Below, piece after piece: positions 8,102 through 18,875 of a DNA stretch of 26,322 bases. Both the position numbers and the translations under genes were made by a program. How positions within the stretch are numbered: position 1 is the first letter of the stretch; each line of letters starts with the position of its first letter. Source of the DNA: a virus; the IMG/VR virus record IMGVR_UViG_3300025168_000567, positions 1 through 26,322 of that record, one strand, 5' to 3'. The notes under the pieces were generated by a model, which saw only the letters and a program-made list of their open reading frames with translations, was not told where the DNA came from and searched no databases.

Positions 8102-8500
8102 TTAAGTATCTTTACACCTGTCTCGGAGCTCTGTAGAAGAGAAGCTGTGCTTTCTTTTATTAAAGTAACATTTATCTTTACACAGTTCTTTGCCTGTAAA
8201 ATCAATCTCTTTATATTCTTCTCCAATAATTCTAATGTCCCACGGATAACAATCGAGTATATCAATAACATCTTCTTCTGTATCATAGACAAAGCTTTTA
8301 TCAACAAACCTACAAGCATCGATTTGAATCTGTCTTTCTACAATATTTTGCACAGGAGCATTTTTTTCAGGTCTGTCTATACTTGGGTCGCTTTGTATAA
8401 AAACTGTTAAATGATCACATGCATTATATGCCTCTTCTAACATTAATACATGACCTGCATGAAATAAATCAAAGGTTCCAAAAGTAATACCTTTAATCAT
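8102..8500 (-). CDS. Cytidylyltransferase-like nucleotidyltransferase
   Basis: The 132-aa protein has FGTFDLFHAGHVLMLEEA at its start, containing the HxGH nucleotide-binding motif (residues 14-17). SSTELR (121-126) near the end corresponds to the ISSTxxR signature. These mark the TagD/GCT-like family that joins CTP to a phosphorylated alcohol or sugar. The length matches single-domain glycerol-3-phosphate cytidylyltransferases; the substrate cannot be told. Its start overlaps the oxygenase gene upstream by 8 bases with only a weak binding site, so the two are coupled and may act on one product. Confidence 0.85.
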   Translation of the reverse strand: MIKGITFGTFDLFHAGHVLMLEEAYNACDHLTVFIQSDPSIDRPEKNAPVQNIVERQIQIDACRFVDKSFVYDTEEDVIDILDCYPWDIRIIGEEYKEIDFTGKELCKDKCYFNKRKHSFSSTELRDRCKDT

Positions 8501-9200
8501 CTACAGGACCTTTTAACCAGAACACAAGTAAATACCTGTCACCTTCCCCTACGGCTAGACCACGGTGCAGATGCGTAAAGCTAGGGAAAAATAAAGCATG
8601 ACCACGAGGTAACGGTTCAACTGTACCACGCTTAAAAAACTCTGTTCCACCACCCTCGTAGTCTCCAGTGTTTAAAGGCACAACAACGCTGATATCAGCA
8701 CTAGAGTCATGATGCCAAGCACCTTGTTTTTTATTCTCTAAATTATAGTTTGCTATCTGTATGCTACTTGCCGTTTCTATGTATCTTTGCCAGATTGAAA
8801 CAAATATTGGGTTTAATACATTATAGACTACGCCAAGCATCGAGTTATATAACTCAGGGCATCTTTCTGATAAAACTATCTCAGGTATCTGTCTAAGTGT
8901 ATCTTCTTCATAGTTAGGTATGAAATCAAAATGTTTTTTCATGTTTTCTATTTCATCTAACATCATGTCACAAAACTCTTCGGTGAATAAACTTACAGAA
9001 TACACATCATTACAGTGTTCTTTTACATAATCCTGTAGAACATTTGTGACACCTTCTTGACCTTCTGACTCAGCATATTCTTTAAGCGAATCAGCTGAGT
9101 CACGAACTAAACTTAGTGTAGTTTGGTTAAGCATCCATTCAGCTTTTATGGTTAATAAAAAGTTTTTAACTAAATACGGAGGGGTTATAGGGCTATCCAC
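8493..9200 (-). CDS. 2OG-Fe(II) dioxygenase, prolyl-4-hydroxylase-like
   Basis: The C-terminal half has the double-stranded beta-helix signature: HHD (first ligands, about H163 and D165), GGGTEFF, then THLHRGLAVGEGDRYLLVFW with the distal His (about H212) and the 2OG-binding Arg (about R222). This is the prolyl-4-hydroxylase-type fold, which hydroxylates proteins or small molecules. The first 130 residues are helical and unassigned. An in-frame TTG at 9212 lies inside the binding site TTGGAGCGTATA, so the GTG at 9200 is preferred, giving 235 aa. The gene overlaps the nucleotidyltransferase. The substrate is unknown. Confidence 0.85.
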   Translation of the reverse strand: MDSPITPPYLVKNFLLTIKAEWMLNQTTLSLVRDSADSLKEYAESEGQEGVTNVLQDYVKEHCNDVYSVSLFTEEFCDMMLDEIENMKKHFDFIPNYEEDTLRQIPEIVLSERCPELYNSMLGVVYNVLNPIFVSIWQRYIETASSIQIANYNLENKKQGAWHHDSSADISVVVPLNTGDYEGGGTEFFKRGTVEPLPRGHALFFPSFTHLHRGLAVGEGDRYLLVFWLKGPVDD

Positions 9201-9279
9201 TATACGCTCCAACAGTTTTTCATAGGGTTTATATAGGTAACTACCTTTTTATTTAGAAAAGGGCTCGAAAAGGCTGTAT

Positions 9280-11460: not shown

Positions 11461-11758
11461 AATTTACTTTGTTGTTTTTAATAATTCTTATATTTTTTAA
11501 TTTCAACCAATCCCTCAACAAAGCATTAGCTGTTTTTCTATCCTCAGTTTCGTTTAGAAAACTTTTATATACTGAATTGTATTGATTTAAACCTTTGTAA
11601 TAATCTCCGTTTCCTATTTTACAGAATCGTATAATTTGCCAAACTCTTTGTTTTGTTACACCATAATTAACACCGATATCTTCAAGTGTAAGTTCAGTGT
11701 TGCTATAGGTCATGTAAACATTGAAATACAATTTTTTAAGTTCAGTTTTACTACTCAC
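11453..11758 (-). CDS. Sigma-70 region 4-like HTH protein
   Basis: The protein contains LTLEDIGVNYGVTKQRVWQI, which closely follows the helix-turn-helix of sigma-70 region 4 (TLEEIG...GVTRERIRQI in sigma factors). It is about 101 aa, too small for a full sigma factor. The frame could start at a GTG at 11788 inside the polymerase gene. The GTG at 11758 overlaps the polymerase stop by 8 bases and has AAGGAGT six bases upstream, so it is chosen. It may be a transcription regulator or sigma-like fragment acting on phage promoters. Confidence 0.65.
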   Translation of the reverse strand: MSSKTELKKLYFNVYMTYSNTELTLEDIGVNYGVTKQRVWQIIRFCKIGNGDYYKGLNQYNSVYKSFLNETEDRKTANALLRDWLKLKNIRIIKNNKVNYG

Positions 11759-13628
11759 TAAAATACTCCTTGTAATCTTTAATTTCACCCCAGTTTCTAC
11801 CTATCTCACCATCTACTTTATTACGTACTTTTAGCTCTACGCAATCTTTCATGATTTCCATAATTTTCTCACACTCTGGTTTATCTTCTACGGATATGTT
11901 AAGTTCGTCGTGTACTTGTGTGTGAGACAAGATACCTTCTTTGTGTAATTCAAGCATTGCTTTTTTAGTCATATCTGCAGCTGAACCCTGTATCAAACGA
12001 TTCATAGCTTTGTATGTATAAGCTCTTTTCAGTTTACCTCCATATTCTTCCATTGCTCTATCCATAGGTAGGGGTAATGCCCTTTTATCGATAGGCTCGT
12101 ATAGATTAAATCTGCATTTACGACCTAGAATAGTTTTTACGTAACCTCTATTAGCCCCCATCCGAGCTGCAGAGTCTCTCAGACCACGGATAAAAGGCAC
12201 TCTTTCATGGTATTGGTTAAACAGTATTTCTGATTCTTCTACACTGATACCTAATTGACTCGTCAATTTATCTTTACCCATACCGTAACTAAGACCAAGA
12301 TTTATTATTTTAGCTTCCTTACGACTTATGTTAGCCATGTCCGCAACTATCTGATGAAAGTCAGCGTCATCATCTGCGTACTCGAGTGCTGCTTCTTCCG
12401 CACCGTCTTGTTGAGTCAACACAGAATAATGAACGGTGAGTCGAGGTTCTTGTTGAGAATAATCGAAACATCCCCAATGTTTACCTTCTTCTGGTATAAA
12501 TAAGCTTCTTATAAGTGGACCGATAACTGGGTCACGAGCTGGCACTTGTTGAAGGTTAGGGTTTGAACAACTAAATCTACCCGTAACCGTACCTCCATCA
12601 TCTGACTTTAACGGGTGCAGTTCTCCGTGTATCCTGCCGTCTACTAGATGACCGAGTATCATTTTATCTATAAAAGTAGTTCTAGCTTTGTTTATTTTTC
12701 TGGCTTTAGCTATGGTTATAGGAAGTTTGTGTTCGTGGTTTTCTAACCAAGAAGCTACGAAACTGGGAGCATCTGTTTTAGGTGTTCTAGGGTACGCAAG
12801 ACCTGCTCTATCAAATACCTGTGATAGAGATTGTGCTGCCCACAAGTCGGGTTCTATACCATACCAATTTTTTATTTGTTTTATTAATTTGTTTTCTTCT
12901 GTTTTAAGTTGTTTTTTAACTTCTTGAGCTCTGTCTGTATCGATGAGTACACCTCTCATCCTCATATCTATCAGGACAGGTAAAACTGAGCTTTCTAGCT
13001 CATATATCTCGGTTATATCTTCCTTAACTATGCCTTCTTTTAAAACTTGCCAAAGTCGATAAGTTAAATCAGCATCTTGCTCACAGTAAGGACCAACGTA
13101 CTCAGGAGCTAGTTTATACATCTCAGATTTAGCATCTATACCGAATACACTTGCTGCTTCTTTTAACAAGCTTTCATCTTTTTCCTCACCTAAGTATCGT
13201 TTACCTACTTTATTTAAAGAGTAGCCGTATTCGTTTTCGTTTAACAAAGGTGCAGCTATTGAAGTATCTTGTATTTTACCGTTAATGGTAAACCCCTCTC
13301 GTTTTAACCAACCTACATCATACTGAGCGTTATGAAATATCTTATCATTAGTCGCGTCTAGTTGTTTCTGTAACCACCTATATACTACAGTCTTATCTAA
13401 ATTTGCTCCAGTTGTGTGGGCTACTGGGAAATAACCTTTCCAACCTTCGGTTGCAACACCTATACCTATAATATAACCTCTATCTTTTGCTGCCCAACCT
13501 GGACCATGGGTCAAGAGCCACGGATCACATGTTTCTAAATCTATAGCTATCTCTCTTTGTCCAGTTAAATCTGGGAAAGAGCTAGGTGGAACCCAATCAC
13601 TTTCTGGGTGAAAAAATGTTAATTGCAT
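11751..13628 (-). CDS. polA: Family A DNA polymerase
   Basis: The 625-aa enzyme combines a 3'-5' exonuclease and a polymerase, without the 5' nuclease of bacterial PolA. Exonuclease residues are D30/E32 (AIDLET), N100-D104 (NAQYD) and Y181-D185 (YCEQD). Polymerase motif A is D389-Y-S-Q-Q-E, motif B is R436...K440...L444...Y448 in an O-helix ending LSYGMG, and motif C is VHDEL (H573-E575). Residue L444 corresponds to Phe762 of E. coli Pol I; Leu at this site is known from many marine virioplankton polymerases. The start overlaps the nuclease stop as TAATG. It is the replicative polymerase of the phage. Confidence 0.97.
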   Translation of the reverse strand: MQLTFFHPESDWVPPSSFPDLTGQREIAIDLETCDPWLLTHGPGWAAKDRGYIIGIGVATEGWKGYFPVAHTTGANLDKTVVYRWLQKQLDATNDKIFHNAQYDVGWLKREGFTINGKIQDTSIAAPLLNENEYGYSLNKVGKRYLGEEKDESLLKEAASVFGIDAKSEMYKLAPEYVGPYCEQDADLTYRLWQVLKEGIVKEDITEIYELESSVLPVLIDMRMRGVLIDTDRAQEVKKQLKTEENKLIKQIKNWYGIEPDLWAAQSLSQVFDRAGLAYPRTPKTDAPSFVASWLENHEHKLPITIAKARKINKARTTFIDKMILGHLVDGRIHGELHPLKSDDGGTVTGRFSCSNPNLQQVPARDPVIGPLIRSLFIPEEGKHWGCFDYSQQEPRLTVHYSVLTQQDGAEEAALEYADDDADFHQIVADMANISRKEAKIINLGLSYGMGKDKLTSQLGISVEESEILFNQYHERVPFIRGLRDSAARMGANRGYVKTILGRKCRFNLYEPIDKRALPLPMDRAMEEYGGKLKRAYTYKAMNRLIQGSAADMTKKAMLELHKEGILSHTQVHDELNISVEDKPECEKIMEIMKDCVELKVRNKVDGEIGRNWGEIKDYKEYFSE

Positions 13629-14308
13629 TATACAGCTGACTCCCTACACATATTTTGTTTACCGAAATAACACCACTTACAACCAAAAGTACTTGGTTTA
13701 GCTGGGAACTCCTCAGCAGTTGTCATAGCGATAGCCCTAGAATGTATTCTCTTTTGTTTTATTTCTATGGTTTTAGGTGTGTAGATATAGCGATCAATCT
13801 TACCGTGATCTAAATACCACATCTCGGTTGTTATTTTTTCTAACTCAGGGTAACGGTTAAGAGCTACGGCTCCATACAACTCACATTGTTCTCTATGACC
13901 TTCTTGATTACCTTCATACCTGCCTGTTTTAAAATCTATTACTCTAGCTTCTTTAGATTCACCTTCTTCATACACAAAAGCATCTACTTTAGCACGACCC
14001 CAAGTATCGTCTTCAAACCAACCTGTTTTATTCCAATTTATATCTATAGCCCAATCACTTTCACAAAGCACATGACCGTATAAATACATTTCCCTTAATA
14101 ACTCAAAAGCATCTTCAAAGTCTTTTAACTGTTTAGGCATCTCTTCGAGAGTACCTCTTATATAATCTTCACACAATTTATGTATATCTTTACCCCTGTC
14201 CATTGCAGCACTTCCAGGCTCTTTAATTTTTTTAATGAATTTAAACTCTGCTTGTTTGGGGCATTTTTCAAAACAACTTAATCTACTATAGGACCATTGA
14301 TTAATCAT
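13628..14308 (-). CDS. RecB/Cas4-like PD-(D/E)XK exonuclease
   Basis: The 226-aa protein starts WSYSRLSCFEKCPKQAEFKF, the usual opening of the PDDEXK_1 (RecB C-terminal/Cas4-like) family. The nuclease residues are H43, D109 (GRAKVD), D125-F-K127 (VIDFKTG) and the QxxxY motif Q141-Y145. Cysteines C16, C210, C213 and C221 are placed as in iron-sulfur Cas4/AddB-type nucleases. It probably resects DNA ends for recombination or replication. The ATG has AAGGAGTGAGTT and the gene overlaps the polymerase gene by one base. No cas genes are near, so a CRISPR role is unlikely. Confidence 0.88.
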   Translation of the reverse strand: MINQWSYSRLSCFEKCPKQAEFKFIKKIKEPGSAAMDRGKDIHKLCEDYIRGTLEEMPKQLKDFEDAFELLREMYLYGHVLCESDWAIDINWNKTGWFEDDTWGRAKVDAFVYEEGESKEARVIDFKTGRYEGNQEGHREQCELYGAVALNRYPELEKITTEMWYLDHGKIDRYIYTPKTIEIKQKRIHSRAIAMTTAEEFPAKPSTFGCKWCYFGKQNMCRESAV

Positions 14309-14319
14309 AACTCACTCCT

Positions 14320-15333
14320 TTATTTAGTTAATCTTCTATCTAACCATTCAAAACAAGCTTTCTTCCAATCTGTAGCAGCACAGTTTTGTATTTCTATTAT
14401 AGCTTCTTCTGTCTTACCTGACTTATGTAACCAAAAAGCATCCTGCATAGGTGCAGCAACTTCTGTGAAAAACCTATCGTTAAAGTCTATATCTTCAAAG
14501 GGTATTCTATCTAAGAAATTAATTAAATCGATATCCCAAAGTTGTGGGTCTACATTTATCATAGGGTAAGGTGAGACTTTAAATGTGCGGTATGGATTTC
14601 TTTCAATAGAGTTTTGTTGAGAATAAAAATCTAATGCATCTCTTTTTAATAATTTTTCTAAAAGTGTTTCATAAACTTTTTGGTAAGCGTGAAAGTTGTC
14701 ACTAATTTGGTAATACTTACCCACAGGTCTACCTATATTAGAAGCCATGTATTCGTGAAGCATGGACATATGTACTGCGTTAGCACCATAAGCACCCCAG
14801 ATAATATCATTCGACCTATTGCTAACTGTCATTTGTAAACGACCTGTAGGATCCTCTTTAAAATATATATTAGTGTTGCATGGGACATCCTTACCGTTTC
14901 TTCCTAAATCATTTTCAGCATCCCACATCTGTAACACAGACCTTCTGTCCTCACTGTCTTTTTTCAATCTTTCTATAATAACCTTTAGTTGATCATAACC
15001 GAAATAACTACGCCATCTCCAACCATAAGCTCCCCAAAGACTTTCGCCATCGTCGCTGTAATTTTCCATATTTTTAGCATAGTATTTTACAAACTCTAAA
15101 TCATTACGACCGTCTAGCATCCACAAACCTTCCATAAAATGAAAAAATGGATTAGCATCTCTTTCCTCCCAAAACAAAACTCTTTCTTTAGGTCTTTCAT
15201 AAACTGTAGTTACAGGTGTTCTAGCTTGATACACCGTACCATTTCTACTGGGACTTTTAAAGTTTTCTTCATCTAATAAAGCTATACCACGAATAAACGC
15301 ATCGTGTACGTTTCTAACTTCAAGAACTTGCAT
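14320..15333 (-). CDS. ThyA-like pyrimidine methylase or hydroxymethylase
   Basis: The 337-aa protein is a divergent thymidylate synthase homologue: FFHFMEGLWMLDGRND, RRSVLQMWD (R130/R131), the catalytic Cys in VPCNTN (C152), then SNRSNDIIWGAYGANAVH. N185 appears to take the place of the Asn that selects dUMP over dCMP, although the loop carries one extra residue. It acts on dUMP with methylene-tetrahydrofolate, giving dTMP or hydroxymethyl-dUMP; which one cannot be read from sequence. It overlaps the glycosyltransferase gene by 14 bases and belongs to the hypermodification-type block. The GGAGGG binding site is strong. Confidence 0.85.
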   Translation of the reverse strand: MQVLEVRNVHDAFIRGIALLDEENFKSPSRNGTVYQARTPVTTVYERPKERVLFWEERDANPFFHFMEGLWMLDGRNDLEFVKYYAKNMENYSDDGESLWGAYGWRWRSYFGYDQLKVIIERLKKDSEDRRSVLQMWDAENDLGRNGKDVPCNTNIYFKEDPTGRLQMTVSNRSNDIIWGAYGANAVHMSMLHEYMASNIGRPVGKYYQISDNFHAYQKVYETLLEKLLKRDALDFYSQQNSIERNPYRTFKVSPYPMINVDPQLWDIDLINFLDRIPFEDIDFNDRFFTEVAAPMQDAFWLHKSGKTEEAIIEIQNCAATDWKKACFEWLDRRLTK

Positions 15334-16102
15334 TTTCTAAACCCTCCTTATAGGCTTTTTTCCAACCAATGATAACATCTTTACGGGGTAAACCGTTCCA
15401 AGCTGTTTTAGTTTGTTTTTCTACTACTTTTACACAAGTTGGGTGAAGATCAGATAACAACTGGGCTCCTTCGTTGTGCACATCTATAGTTCGCCACTCA
15501 CTACAGCCACCTTTAGCGTTAGAACTTTTTTGACCTTGAGCATAGTAGTAACTGACTTTACAAGCTTTACCGCTTTTCAAAAGCTGTAAAGACATATCAA
15601 AATCTTCCATTATCTTAGTCCTACCCCACTCGATATTATCGGGGAAAGCATCTAAGTTATAAGCCAGGACTCTCATGTATCTAGTATTATCTACAGATAA
15701 ATCTTCTACCCTGTTATTACCTTCCCTAGCACTAACGCCACAGTGAGCGTACCCTTGTTTCATCCACTCTTCTAACAAACCAAACATAGCTAGATACTCA
15801 TTTTTTTCTAGATAACGCAAGTGCCAATCAGTGGGACTTTTGCGAATATAAAAACGTAAATCATCATCAAGCATAACTATATGTGGGTCTTCTGCATTTT
15901 CTACAATATACTTACGCTTTGGACCTATGCCGATACAGTCTTCTGGAACAACTATTTTAGGTTGGTCGTCGTGATAAAATTTGTATTGGTCTTCTTCATC
16001 TTTATCAATTACTAAGATAACTTCTTTCTTAAGCTCTTCTGGGAAGAAACTTAATGTTACTTGGTCTAGGGCTCTACCCCTAGTTGGTATATATATTTTC
16101 AT
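15320..16102 (-). CDS. TET-associated-type (TAGT-like) glycosyltransferase
   Basis: The 260-aa GT-A-like protein starts MKIYIPTRGRALDQVTLSFF and carries IGIGPKRKYIVENA followed by VMLDDDLRFYIRKS, with the metal-binding DDD at 79-81. A later IMEDFDMSLQLL (E166/D167) may hold the catalytic acid. This matches the TET/JBP-associated glycosyltransferases predicted to add sugars to hydroxymethylated pyrimidines in phage DNA. No TET/JBP gene is in the window; hydroxymethyl groups would then come from the neighbouring ThyA-like enzyme or from outside the window. The ATG overlaps the upstream stop as ATGA. A glycosyltransferase acting on a protein or glycan is the alternative. Confidence 0.75.
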   Translation of the reverse strand: MKIYIPTRGRALDQVTLSFFPEELKKEVILVIDKDEEDQYKFYHDDQPKIVVPEDCIGIGPKRKYIVENAEDPHIVMLDDDLRFYIRKSPTDWHLRYLEKNEYLAMFGLLEEWMKQGYAHCGVSAREGNNRVEDLSVDNTRYMRVLAYNLDAFPDNIEWGRTKIMEDFDMSLQLLKSGKACKVSYYYAQGQKSSNAKGGCSEWRTIDVHNEGAQLLSDLHPTCVKVVEKQTKTAWNGLPRKDVIIGWKKAYKEGLENASS

Positions 16103-16437
16103 ATTTTTTCCTCGTCATTATTATTCGTATCTACAAATGGACCAAGCCACTCAGGGTTTTTAACCACGTGTTCTTCTACTAATAAAAGATATCTCCTTAA
16201 ATCTTGTATATCATCTAGTATGCCAGAAGTGCTAGGGTCTTTTGAAATAGTTTCAAAAATATCATAGCCTTCTTTTACGACTTGGTTTTCTATCCTATCC
16301 CACTTACGGGCTAACATCATGAAGGCACCTACACCTCCTCTTTTTTTCCAGCTATCCCCATAACTTTTCTCAGCTTTCTTCAAACCGTTTATATCTAAAT
16401 TAGATATCATCTTCATTTTTGCAAATTTTGATGCCAT
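16099..16437 (-). CDS. Nmad1-like (DUF1599-like) nucleotide-modification-associated protein
   Basis: The 112-aa helical protein has YGDSWKKRGGVGAFMMLARK (about 26-45) and DDIQDLRRYLLLVEEHV (about 75-91). This YGxxW...KxxRIE...D-helix pattern recalls the nucleotide modification associated domain 1 (DUF1599), itself found in phage base-modification neighbourhoods. The reaction is unknown; a MazG-like fold acting on nucleotides is possible. Stop-start overlaps on both sides (TAATG upstream, ATGA downstream) lock it into the block. Confidence 0.55.
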   Translation of the reverse strand: MASKFAKMKMISNLDINGLKKAEKSYGDSWKKRGGVGAFMMLARKWDRIENQVVKEGYDIFETISKDPSTSGILDDIQDLRRYLLLVEEHVVKNPEWLGPFVDTNNNDEEKI

Positions 16438-16937
16438 TATATCCCTCCATATAGTTTTATTAATTGACCTAATAATCGCGAACCACGATCGTTTAGTTTT
16501 TGACTTGCTAAAAATTCTACACCTTTACTAAAAACTTTGTTCATATTAGTGTTACCCATCCTTCTTTGTTTCATACAAAAAAATAAAAGCTCAAACATAT
16601 CAGCTTGTTTGTATAGGATTTTTTCCTCAGCACTTATGATGCTGTATTGATCTACACCCAACAACTCTTCGTATTTTTCTTCTACTTTATCTAAAACTTT
16701 TTTAACTTCTGGATGTGCCCATTTCAAAGGAGAAGGCATGTCACCTGTATATGCTTCTGTAACGTCGTGTGTGAGTGCTTTCATAATTAAATCTTTACTA
16801 ACGTCAGGTTTAAGATATTCAAGTATTATAGCTACACCCCATGAATGACTTGCTATAGACTGTTCACCTATAGTTTCTAAAGTGTGGTATCGTTTAACAA
16901 CGCCACAGTCCATTATTTCAAATATATTATCTATCAT
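16437..16937 (-). CDS. HD-domain 5'-nucleotidase, YfbR-like
   Basis: The 166-aa protein has the HD metal ligands in order: H31 in SIASHSWG, H57-D58 in ALTHDVTE and D113 in YKQADMFEL. These correspond to the YfbR family, which removes the 5' phosphate from deoxynucleoside monophosphates. In a phage this can recycle host nucleotides or remove an unwanted canonical dNMP. The length fits the family. The start lies in the end of the aGPT-like gene with no separate binding site, so translation is coupled. Confidence 0.88.
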   Translation of the reverse strand: MIDNIFEIMDCGVVKRYHTLETIGEQSIASHSWGVAIILEYLKPDVSKDLIMKALTHDVTEAYTGDMPSPLKWAHPEVKKVLDKVEEKYEELLGVDQYSIISAEEKILYKQADMFELLFFCMKQRRMGNTNMNKVFSKGVEFLASQKLNDRGSRLLGQLIKLYGGI

Positions 16938-17772
16938 ATTTATATTTAGCTCTGGGTCTACCTTGACCTAAACGTGTCCTCTCATATTTATCAAACTCAC
17001 ACAAGCAGTGCTCAATATCTCTCATTTCTAAAGAAGGTACATGAGGCTCTAGGTATTTAGGGCTTTCAGATAATAAATCTTTCATCTCACAGTTCCACCC
17101 TATATAACCTATGTGTCCTCTAGTGGGACTCCAGGTTAGTTCTCTACCGTGTATTCTATTTAGTCCACGTTTAGCTCCTGGACCTGGATTAGCCCAAGTA
17201 TAGATATCACGAGCGTTACCCAGATATTTCGTGTGTCGTAAGTCAGTCACCACTTCATAAGCCATAAACCCACTAAACCCAGCATAAGATAAGTACTCAG
17301 ACCAAGTTTTCTGTAAACTTTCAGAGTGGATTTCAGGTTGATTCTCATAAAGTGGAGTAAGTATTTTATCAATAGTCTGTTGTACTTTTGTACCTCCTAA
17401 CGTACCTGTCAGCATGTAGGCACCTGTGTAGACTTTTTCACCCCTGTCCATTCTACCTTGCATTATAGCTTTGACACGTTCAGGGTTCCAATGCTCAGGA
17501 AACCCAATCTCTTGTAAAGTCTCTGGCCAATTTATTTGGCGAGCGACAGACATAGCGAAAGGTAAATTAGGGTGATCAGCGTAGGGTTCTTTCCAGTTTT
17601 CCCTTAACCATATAGTAACGCTATCTAGTTCACGAAACACATTACAAAAACTAAACTCTTTTATTATAGGATCTTCAGTCCAAGGAGGTTCCATACCAGC
17701 TTGTCTACGGCAATATATTTGATGCCTTTCATTTATGTAATTAAAAAACCCATTTATCTGTTCAAGAACCAT
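16927..17772 (-). CDS. aGPT-PPlase2 / 5-hmdU DNA kinase helical-domain protein
   Basis: The 281-aa protein has RHQIYCRRQAG (16-26), FCNVFRELDSVTIWLRENW (42-60), GPGAKRGLNR (197-206) and HCLCEFDKYERTRLGQGRPR (255-274). This order is typical of the alpha-glutamyl/putrescinyl-thymine pyrophosphorylase clade 2 family, also named the 5-hmdU DNA kinase helical domain. The fold is HhH-glycosylase-like. In phages with hypermodified thymine such proteins are predicted to act on pyrophosphorylated hydroxymethyl-uracil in DNA. No P-loop kinase domain is attached. A GGGAGG binding site inside the preceding gene and a 19-base overlap show coupling. Confidence 0.82.
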   Translation of the reverse strand: MVLEQINGFFNYINERHQIYCRRQAGMEPPWTEDPIIKEFSFCNVFRELDSVTIWLRENWKEPYADHPNLPFAMSVARQINWPETLQEIGFPEHWNPERVKAIMQGRMDRGEKVYTGAYMLTGTLGGTKVQQTIDKILTPLYENQPEIHSESLQKTWSEYLSYAGFSGFMAYEVVTDLRHTKYLGNARDIYTWANPGPGAKRGLNRIHGRELTWSPTRGHIGYIGWNCEMKDLLSESPKYLEPHVPSLEMRDIEHCLCEFDKYERTRLGQGRPRAKYKYDR

Positions 17773-18224
17773 TCTGGTACCTCCCGTTTAGTCCATTTAG
17801 CGAAATTGCTTTTTTCCCCTATATAGTATTTACGATAGGCTTTAATAGGGTCATTAACCACTTTATACTCATCGGGCATACATTGAGGATGCTGTTGTAA
17901 ACCTTTACTTTCTATTAAAGGATCTGATAATTCATTGACTACGTCTATAGATCTGTGACATGTATTCCTACCGTATCTCCAGCAAAACTCTTCATTAAGG
18001 TATATAGCTAATTCTTTTAACCAGAGCCAATTATCAAGACTGTCTCCAGCCCATAGAGTACAAGGGTGTTTAGCATGTACAGGTTTGTAGGGAGCGGTTT
18101 GACCGTTAGTCCATAATGCCGTACAAAGCATTTGAGTAGACTCTAGTATCATCTTAGACACATGTTTATCGCAATGCTGTTGAGCACTTTGAAGTGTAGT
18201 GTGGTCTAATTTAAAAATATTCAT
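17754..18224 (-). CDS. Conserved marine-phage protein, 156 aa
   Basis: The pattern MNIFKLDHTTLQSAQQHCDK, KMILESTQMLCTALW, YKPVHAKHPCTLWAGDS, then YRKYYIGEKSNFAKWTKREV is one I associate with uncharacterised proteins widespread in aquatic phages. The conserved Asp, Cys, His, Lys and Trp residues suggest an enzyme, perhaps acting on DNA or nucleotides, but no reaction is established to my knowledge. It is the first gene of the hypermodification-type block, has a separate promoter, and overlaps the aGPT-like gene. Confidence 0.75.
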   Translation of the reverse strand: MNIFKLDHTTLQSAQQHCDKHVSKMILESTQMLCTALWTNGQTAPYKPVHAKHPCTLWAGDSLDNWLWLKELAIYLNEEFCWRYGRNTCHRSIDVVNELSDPLIESKGLQQHPQCMPDEYKVVNDPIKAYRKYYIGEKSNFAKWTKREVPEWFLNR

Positions 18225-18293: not shown

Positions 18294-18875
18294 TCATATA
18301 CCCGTCCTAAATGTTAAGTTTATTCGTTCTTGACCACCTTTTACATCTAGTACCGAGTGAGTAGAATTCATTTGTGAATAGCCATCAAAAATAAACACGT
18401 CCCCATCTTCCATAAGGTAGTTAACCAATAGTTTTTTAGCTATGTATTTAGTGTTAATTTCACTAGAAGCTGTTTCTTTTTTAATTTCTTTTTGGTATTC
18501 TTGCCATTGAAATATTCTAGGTGAACCGAAAGATATTGAAACAACTAAATCATTTAAAGTAGGTACTGTATCTGAATGGTGCGGTATCCCCATGCCATCT
18601 TTACCGTAGTAGCCACATAAACAAAAATTAAAATCAATAGTTCTACCAAGTTTTTTCAAAACTAACCCTTCAGCTTTCAATTTAAACTCTTCCATACAAG
18701 CACTCCATGGTTCGGGTTTATATATCCTACCTGCGTACTTAAAATCTGAAGAACCGTAGGCTTTAGTTGGTCTGCCTTTAATTTGTTTACCATTAAACAT
18801 TCTATCTACAGGTTTATCCCAATCAGGTATGTCGGGGTAGCGATCTTGAAAAACTCCTTTAATAAATTTAATCAT
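18294..18875 (-). CDS. AlkB-like 2OG-Fe(II) dioxygenase
   Basis: The 193-aa protein contains FNFCLCGYYGKDGMGIPHHS, then SISFGSPRIFQW, GDVFIFDG and RINLTFR. The Fe ligands are H100, D102 and H173, and R184-I-N-L-T-F-R190 is the AlkB RxNxTxR motif. AlkB enzymes oxidatively remove methyl or alkyl groups from DNA or RNA bases. The phage enzyme may repair its own DNA, or oxidise a modified base, which is inference. It overlaps the helicase gene as ATGA and shares its operon; an AAGGAG site lies 11 bases upstream. Confidence 0.9.
   Translation of the reverse strand: MIKFIKGVFQDRYPDIPDWDKPVDRMFNGKQIKGRPTKAYGSSDFKYAGRIYKPEPWSACMEEFKLKAEGLVLKKLGRTIDFNFCLCGYYGKDGMGIPHHSDTVPTLNDLVVSISFGSPRIFQWQEYQKEIKKETASSEINTKYIAKKLLVNYLMEDGDVFIFDGYSQMNSTHSVLDVKGGQERINLTFRTGI

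Follow-up and report, generated by a model that had tools for sequence, protein, structure and literature searches.

We analysed a 26,322-base IMG/VR record of a marine phage (IMGVR_UViG_3300025168_000567; the whole record is called the window below), in which five genes on the minus strand form a single block (14320-17772). Successive genes overlap by 11, 1, 4 and 14 nucleotides. They encode a helical protein of the HMUDK_hel (aGPT-PPlase1) family without a P-loop (281 amino acids; 16927-17772; Pfam: PF18723, E-value 2.2e-46), a YfbR-like HD 5'-deoxynucleotidase (166 amino acids; 16437-16937; PF12917, 6.2e-17), an Nmad1/DUF1599-like protein (112 amino acids; 16099-16437), a TAGT-family glycosyltransferase (260 amino acids; 15320-16102; PF20691, 1.1e-24; phrog_842, 5e-52) and a ThyA-like, predicted dUMP 5-hydroxymethylase (337 amino acids; 14320-15333; PF00303, 2e-20; phrog_5131, 5e-123). 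A PDDEXK_1 exonuclease gene and then a family A DNA polymerase gene (PolA) lie downstream; upstream are a gene of PHROG 624, which overlaps the helical protein gene by 19 nucleotides, and an AlkB-like gene. The order of the block is kept in a relative that is 94% identical (L003), and dozens of other related marine phage contigs in IMG/VR have the same block with small rearrangements, likewise next to the exonuclease and PolA genes.

An earlier note on this DNA, made from the letters alone, had described five overlapping genes in one block beside the phage polymerase, and the open reading frames and their neighbours bear this out. Its ThyA-like, TAGT-like and HD nucleotidase labels are likewise confirmed by Pfam (Thymidylat_synt, TAGT and YfbR-like). 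The label that it gave to the helical protein, "aGPT-PPlase2/5-hmdU-kinase helical," was right in its second half: the protein belongs to HMUDK_hel (aGPT-PPlase1), and PF18723 is its sole match. It does not match PF18724 (ADDT), the Pfam family that we take aGPT-PPlase2 to be. The fifth label, "Nmad1-like," finds no direct profile match, and a distant relation appears through a single family member, as described below.

The base that is modified is best read from the ThyA-like protein. We aligned it, in the numbering of E. coli thymidylate synthase (TS), with that enzyme, T4 gp42, SPO1 gp29 (annotated as a dUMP hydroxymethylase), the ViI and M6 proteins, and 58 further ThyA proteins that are encoded at other HMUDK_hel loci. 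In the window protein W80 falls in a gap, W83 is replaced by Tyr, L143 by Asp and H147 by Asn, while C146 and the uracil/dUMP-binding N177 are retained. The M6 protein has the same gap, Tyr and Asp at the first three positions, and those of ViI and SPO1 differ from it in having Phe at W83; judged from the alignment, the signature of the window protein is thus the SPO1/ViI/M6 pattern. N177 is retained in 56 of the 58 related proteins. The T4 dCMP hydroxymethylase gp42 does not have Asn at this position (the residue there is presumably Asp). The window protein is 49% identical to M6 gp58, and its best match in the Protein Data Bank (PDB), above every TS structure, is the CMP hydroxymethylase MilA. 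In several sister records a dUTPase gene sits at the place of the HD nucleotidase gene (L009:6522-6980, L079:11191, L086:9101). Together with the residue signature, this points to dUMP as the substrate, and hence to replacement of thymine. There are strong grounds to expect that the product is 5-hydroxymethyl-dUMP (5hmdUMP) rather than dTMP or hydroxymethyl-dCMP.

The TAGT protein scores 88 bits against a curated cut-off of 27.5 for PF20691, and its Asp-rich donor motif (D79-D80-D81) is invariant across 21 aligned members. The annotation of the matching phrog_842 is beta-glucosyl-HMC-alpha-glucosyltransferase. A GT-A fold has been predicted for the family (PMC13216743). Sequence searches of solved structures with this protein gave chance-level matches only. 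We predict that it glycosylates 5-hydroxymethyldeoxyuridine (5hmdU) in DNA.

The helical protein matches PF18723 with 158.9 bits, above the cut-off, over positions 5-276 of its 281 residues, and is 41% identical to its M6 counterpart. HMUDK_hel is also present in ViI and in Brevibacterium phage LuckyBarnes. No solved structure is matched by sequence. The AlphaFold2 (AF2) model (pLDDT 92) has as its nearest PDB fold 8z2n, the 5-PmdU glycinyltransferase PUGT, followed by helix-hairpin-helix DNA glycosylases of the 8-oxoG/AlkA type. Among predicted viral structures there are strong matches in W-14 and SP10, the latter a 637 amino acid long protein named 5-hmdU DNA kinase. The invariant residues are identical for kinase-linked and TAGT-linked proteins, and nine polar residues are strictly kept whatever the partner (R16, R47, D50, D177, D189, E259, D261, K262, R265). 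The simplest reading of these models and alignments is that HMUDK_hel may recognise or flip the base as a partner shared by different decorating enzymes. A variant compatible with this, though an unlikely one in our estimate, is that HMUDK_hel itself acts on the base as an enzyme, as does its fold relative ADDT (PF18724), to which M6 gp51 belongs. Both the nearest solved fold and the nine conserved polar residues would fit such a role, but no cofactor or donor site can be identified, and the fold match to the SP10 "5-hmdU DNA kinase" fits a shared role in handling the substrate.

The two remaining proteins probably act on the nucleotide pool. The HD protein scores 62.3 bits against the YfbR-like profile (cut-off 25.9); among PDB entries it matches YfbR (2e-6) and DatZ (5.5e-5), and among PHROGs a dATP triphosphohydrolase (1.6e-19). 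The 112 amino acid long protein has no direct Pfam match; the sole member of its family to reach DUF1599 (PF07659) is that of L131, with an E-value of 2.9e-4 and 14.4 bits against a curated cut-off of 25, so that by sequence it is at best a distant Nmad1 relative. Its motifs D47xxE50 and D76xxD79 seem to resemble the metal motif of MazG. A fold search with its AF2 model returned weak matches to MazG-type pyrophosphatases only, and sequence searches of solved structures gave chance-level matches only. It is possibly a dNTP pyrophosphohydrolase. In LuckyBarnes, the ThyA protein (L082:13436-14989) carries a C-terminal stretch (YGKSWRKRG...) like the 112 amino acid long protein (28 columns, hhalign E-value 6.5e-6), which suggests that the Nmad1-like protein and ThyA may work together.

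What the block lacks is a 5-hmdU kinase. Neither this enzyme nor ADDT was found in the window or in six relatives of 59.7-63.6 kb, and searches with PF18748 and PF18724 found nothing in 17 sister records that include these six, while an M6-like control was positive in both searches. Since the mean genome size of the lineage is 58.8 kb (PMC9599517), the six sisters are probably near complete. We also considered a hidden kinase and rejected it: a hidden Markov model built from 22 kinases gave a best E-value of 0.55 on four near-complete sisters, and a Walker-A scan of the same four identified a UvrD-like helicase as the sole convincing protein, with a few chance matches in other open reading frames.

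Is the absence of the kinase a peculiarity of this lineage? Clustering of 158 HMUDK_hel loci, some of them with short flanks, at 70% identity gave 67 clusters. Of these, 61 have ThyA nearby, 18 a P-loop kinase and 31 TAGT; kinase and TAGT occur together in none, and 18 clusters have neither. ADDT accompanies the kinase in nine clusters and TAGT in none. When whole records were searched, PF18748 was found in 0 of 27 TAGT-bearing records, and PF20691 above its cut-off in 0 of 12 kinase records. On a quick tree of HMUDK_hel (67 rows), the kinase/TAGT label needs at least eight changes, and the strongly supported branches force five changes of the kinase label. With HMUDK_hel of LuckyBarnes as the query, two loci only were recovered. 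It is tempting to hypothesize that HMUDK_hel is not part of the kinase and is the shared DNA-handling core of 5hmdU decoration, and that the decorating enzyme has been exchanged repeatedly: a P-loop kinase with an amino acid transferase, TAGT or a GT-B-like glycosyltransferase, and possibly an APS kinase with a sulfotransferase. On that view, many of the solitary TAGTs of phages would add the primary sugar to 5hmdU, and marine phages would thereby have base J-like DNA. We hold this wider proposal tentatively, at somewhat less than even odds.

Other genes were seen at HMUDK_hel loci. Some with neither kinase nor TAGT (L096, L132, L143) have glycosyltransferases of the group 1/4 type. Another of these loci has APS-kinase-like (PF01583, 2.7e-12) and sulfotransferase-like genes between HMUDK_hel and ThyA (L066:2031-3022), and further sulfotransferase-like genes are present in L096, L104, L105, L107 and L146, a hint that 5hmdU may be sulfated. 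A radical-SAM-like gene lies between TAGT and ThyA in L071 (8315-9328) and, by similarity to this seed, likewise occurs in L096, L115, L116, L128 and L167.

We propose that the block represents a branch of phage thymine hypermodification that does without the kinase: TAGT glycosylates 5hmdU in DNA, and HMUDK_hel handles the base for whatever enzyme decorates it (probability about 0.65). From what is observed, namely the gene identities, the residue signature, the absence of the kinase and the exclusivity of the partners, we infer each chemical step as follows. The ThyA-like enzyme very probably makes 5hmdUMP. The Nmad1/MazG-like protein, together with the HD nucleotidase (whose place a dUTPase takes in sisters), would tilt the pool from dTTP toward dUMP and 5hmdUTP. 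PolA, which presumably incorporates 5hmdUTP, would place 5hmdU into DNA, as its proximity and the analogy to ViI, M6 and W-14 suggest. TAGT would then put a sugar on the hydroxymethyl group of 5hmdU in DNA to give a base J-like glycosylated thymine. Least certain of all, HMUDK_hel might recognise or flip 5hmdU in the manner of a DNA glycosylase and so serve the decorating enzyme of the phage. Most likely, therefore, thymine is replaced in part by a hydroxymethylated base that is then tagged with a sugar. Of the pyrimidine hypermodification that the earlier note had suggested, the hydroxymethyl-dUMP base with a final sugar is well supported, while the amine branch is not supported, PF18748 and PF18724 being absent from the near-complete relatives. 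The same note had taken the missing kinase to mean that the chemistry was incomplete or different; the comparison of loci shows a different, recurrent branch with TAGT in the stead of the kinase.

Several observations weigh against this explanation. The only characterised activity of TAGT is the addition of a second glucose to glucosylated hydroxymethylcytosine (glucosyl-hmC) in T2 and T6, so direct glycosylation of 5hmdU would be a new activity for the family. At two loci with both TAGT and HMUDK_hel, L112 (6820) and L114 (6902), ThyA has Asp at the N177 position; by its residues it is a cytosine-type hydroxymethylase, and HMUDK_hel would then not be strictly bound to uracil. The PDB fold matches of HMUDK_hel are weak (E-values 0.13-0.73, TM at most about 0.47). 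Phage MW202897 has TAGT, ThyA and the HD protein without HMUDK_hel, which is thus not needed in every case. Finally, the exclusivity of kinase and TAGT is significant (Fisher test, 67 clusters, p = 1e-6), but the test ignores phylogeny and some flanks are short.

One alternative is a T-even-like cytosine pathway, where ThyA would be a dCMP hydroxymethylase and TAGT would glycosylate 5-hydroxymethylcytosine. TAGT does adjoin an annotated dCMP hydroxymethylase in T-even-like phages, and the T2/T6 substrate is a glucosylated hydroxymethylcytosine. We nevertheless consider this pathway improbable for the window, given the uracil-binding Asn that it and most related ThyA proteins share with SPO1 gp29 and not with T4 gp42, the dUTPase in the place of the HD gene, and the linkage to HMUDK_hel, which is present in the T-modified phages ViI, M6, W-14 and SP10. 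There is equally little to be said for an M6/ViI-type pathway, with a kinase encoded elsewhere that makes 5-PmdU for substitution by an amine and a TAGT with an unrelated function. HMUDK_hel, ThyA, the HD protein and PolA are indeed common to M6, in a similar order. The failure to find PF18748 in the window, or either profile in the sister records, counts against it, as does the fact that neither the kinase nor ADDT is ever found with TAGT. The searches and the Walker-A scan of near-complete sisters make the 5-PmdU/amine route very unlikely in this lineage.

Ordinary nucleotide metabolism would require ThyA to be a true thymidylate synthase, the name given to it by the profile libraries, with the other proteins managing the pool or modifying other molecules; phages often carry HD and dUTPase genes. 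We give this no better odds than the two pathways above. The TS-specific W80, W83 and L143 are lost, in the manner of the SPO1 dUMP hydroxymethylase, the best PDB match is a hydroxymethylase, and HMUDK_hel and TAGT are fixed neighbours. The HD protein could also be a DatZ-type dATPase of a 2-aminoadenine (Z) genome, as its matches to the dATP triphosphohydrolase PHROG and to DatZ and the nearby family A polymerase might suggest. YfbR is the better match, a dUTPase takes the place of the HD gene in sisters, and PurZ-type PF00709 was found in 0 of 12 sister records, with 14 of 14 controls positive; we rejected the PurZ/Z-genome reading on this last result and regard such a genome as exceedingly improbable. 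The kinase-free glycosylation of 5hmdU remains the explanation that we prefer.

Several neighbouring genes, all on the minus strand, may or may not take part. The PHROG 624 "DNA binding protein" (156 amino acids; 17754-18224; phrog_624, 1.9e-51) has no Pfam match, and its gene adjoins that of the helical protein in most relatives. The AlkB-like 2-oxoglutarate (2OG)-Fe(II) oxygenase (18294-18875; PF13532, 2e-16) is of uncertain relevance, and its location differs among relatives. With an OGFOD2-like gene at 8493-9212, the window has two unlike 2OG-Fe(II) oxygenases, as is likewise reported for HTVC023P-type pelagiphages. The PD-(D/E)XK exonuclease (13628-14308; PF12705, 1.3e-18) is a conserved neighbour. 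PolA (625 amino acids; 11751-13628; PF00476, 2e-58; exonuclease domain, 2e-10) has its nearest relatives in HTVC023P-type pelagiphages, at 48-51% identity (023Pt_psg01, 51%; HTVC027P, 49%; HTVC023P, 48%). A cytidylyltransferase-like gene (8102-8500; PF01467, 1e-11) adjoins PolA within the cluster in some relatives, e.g., L035, L044 and L048, and its product could, with low confidence, be a donor-supply enzyme.

Solitary TAGTs were found in 288 of 753 phage genomes in a 2026 study, which described the function of TAGT as "yet to be defined" (PMC13216743), and according to a 2019 paper no phage genome had been reported to contain glycosylated 5hmdU (PMC6449724). Our analysis gives solitary TAGTs a specific predicted substrate, 5hmdU in DNA. 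LuckyBarnes is a cultured phage in which to test it; its complete genome encodes ThyA, HMUDK_hel and two TAGTs and lacks the kinase. If the proposal is true, phage base chemistry extends past amine-type thymidines, candidate tools become available for placing sugars at the T positions of DNA, and only one of several partners is covered by the Pfam name "5-hmdU DNA kinase, helical domain."

Among known systems, the 5hmdU DNA kinase route of M6, ViI and W-14 shares with the window the ThyA-type hydroxymethylase and HMUDK_hel, and M6 also has an HD nucleotidase and PolA close by; the window differs in having TAGT instead of the P-loop kinase, ADDT and the PLP or photolyase-like sculpting enzymes. 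The TAGT of T2 and T6 (beta-glucosyl-HMC-alpha-glucosyltransferase) belongs to the same Pfam family, PF20691, but adds a second sugar to glucosyl-hmC beside an alpha-GT, whereas that of the window stands beside a uracil-type hydroxymethylase, with no alpha-GT or beta-GT recognised in the window. The predicted product would chemically resemble trypanosomatid base J, a glucosylated 5hmU; for base J, JBP oxygenases act on T that is already in DNA, whereas here a ThyA homolog would supply 5hmdU at the nucleotide level. LuckyBarnes has ThyA-TAGT-TAGT-HMUDK_hel near PolA and, like the window, no kinase; unlike it, LuckyBarnes has two TAGTs and the Nmad1-like stretch on ThyA. The Manatee Spring phage MW202897 (TAGT-ThyA-HD) also lacks the kinase and differs in lacking HMUDK_hel. 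The earlier note had thought that the combination may be new, which is not entirely so. A comparable set beside PolA, consisting of TS, aG/PT-PPlase1, 5'-deoxynucleotidase and beta-glucosyl-HMC-alpha-glucosyltransferase, was reported in 2022 for HTVC023P-type pelagiphages (PMC9599517), with the same gene set and PolA adjacency as in the window. In its available text, that study, based on annotation and gene trees, assigns the genes to thymidine hypermodification without giving the chemistry, and remarks that the set may extend function past the Pseudomonas system; the missing kinase, the uracil signature and the exclusivity of partners are not reported there. We regard the locus as a variant of phage thymidine hypermodification that relies on a glycosyltransferase and has no kinase, and not as categorically new.

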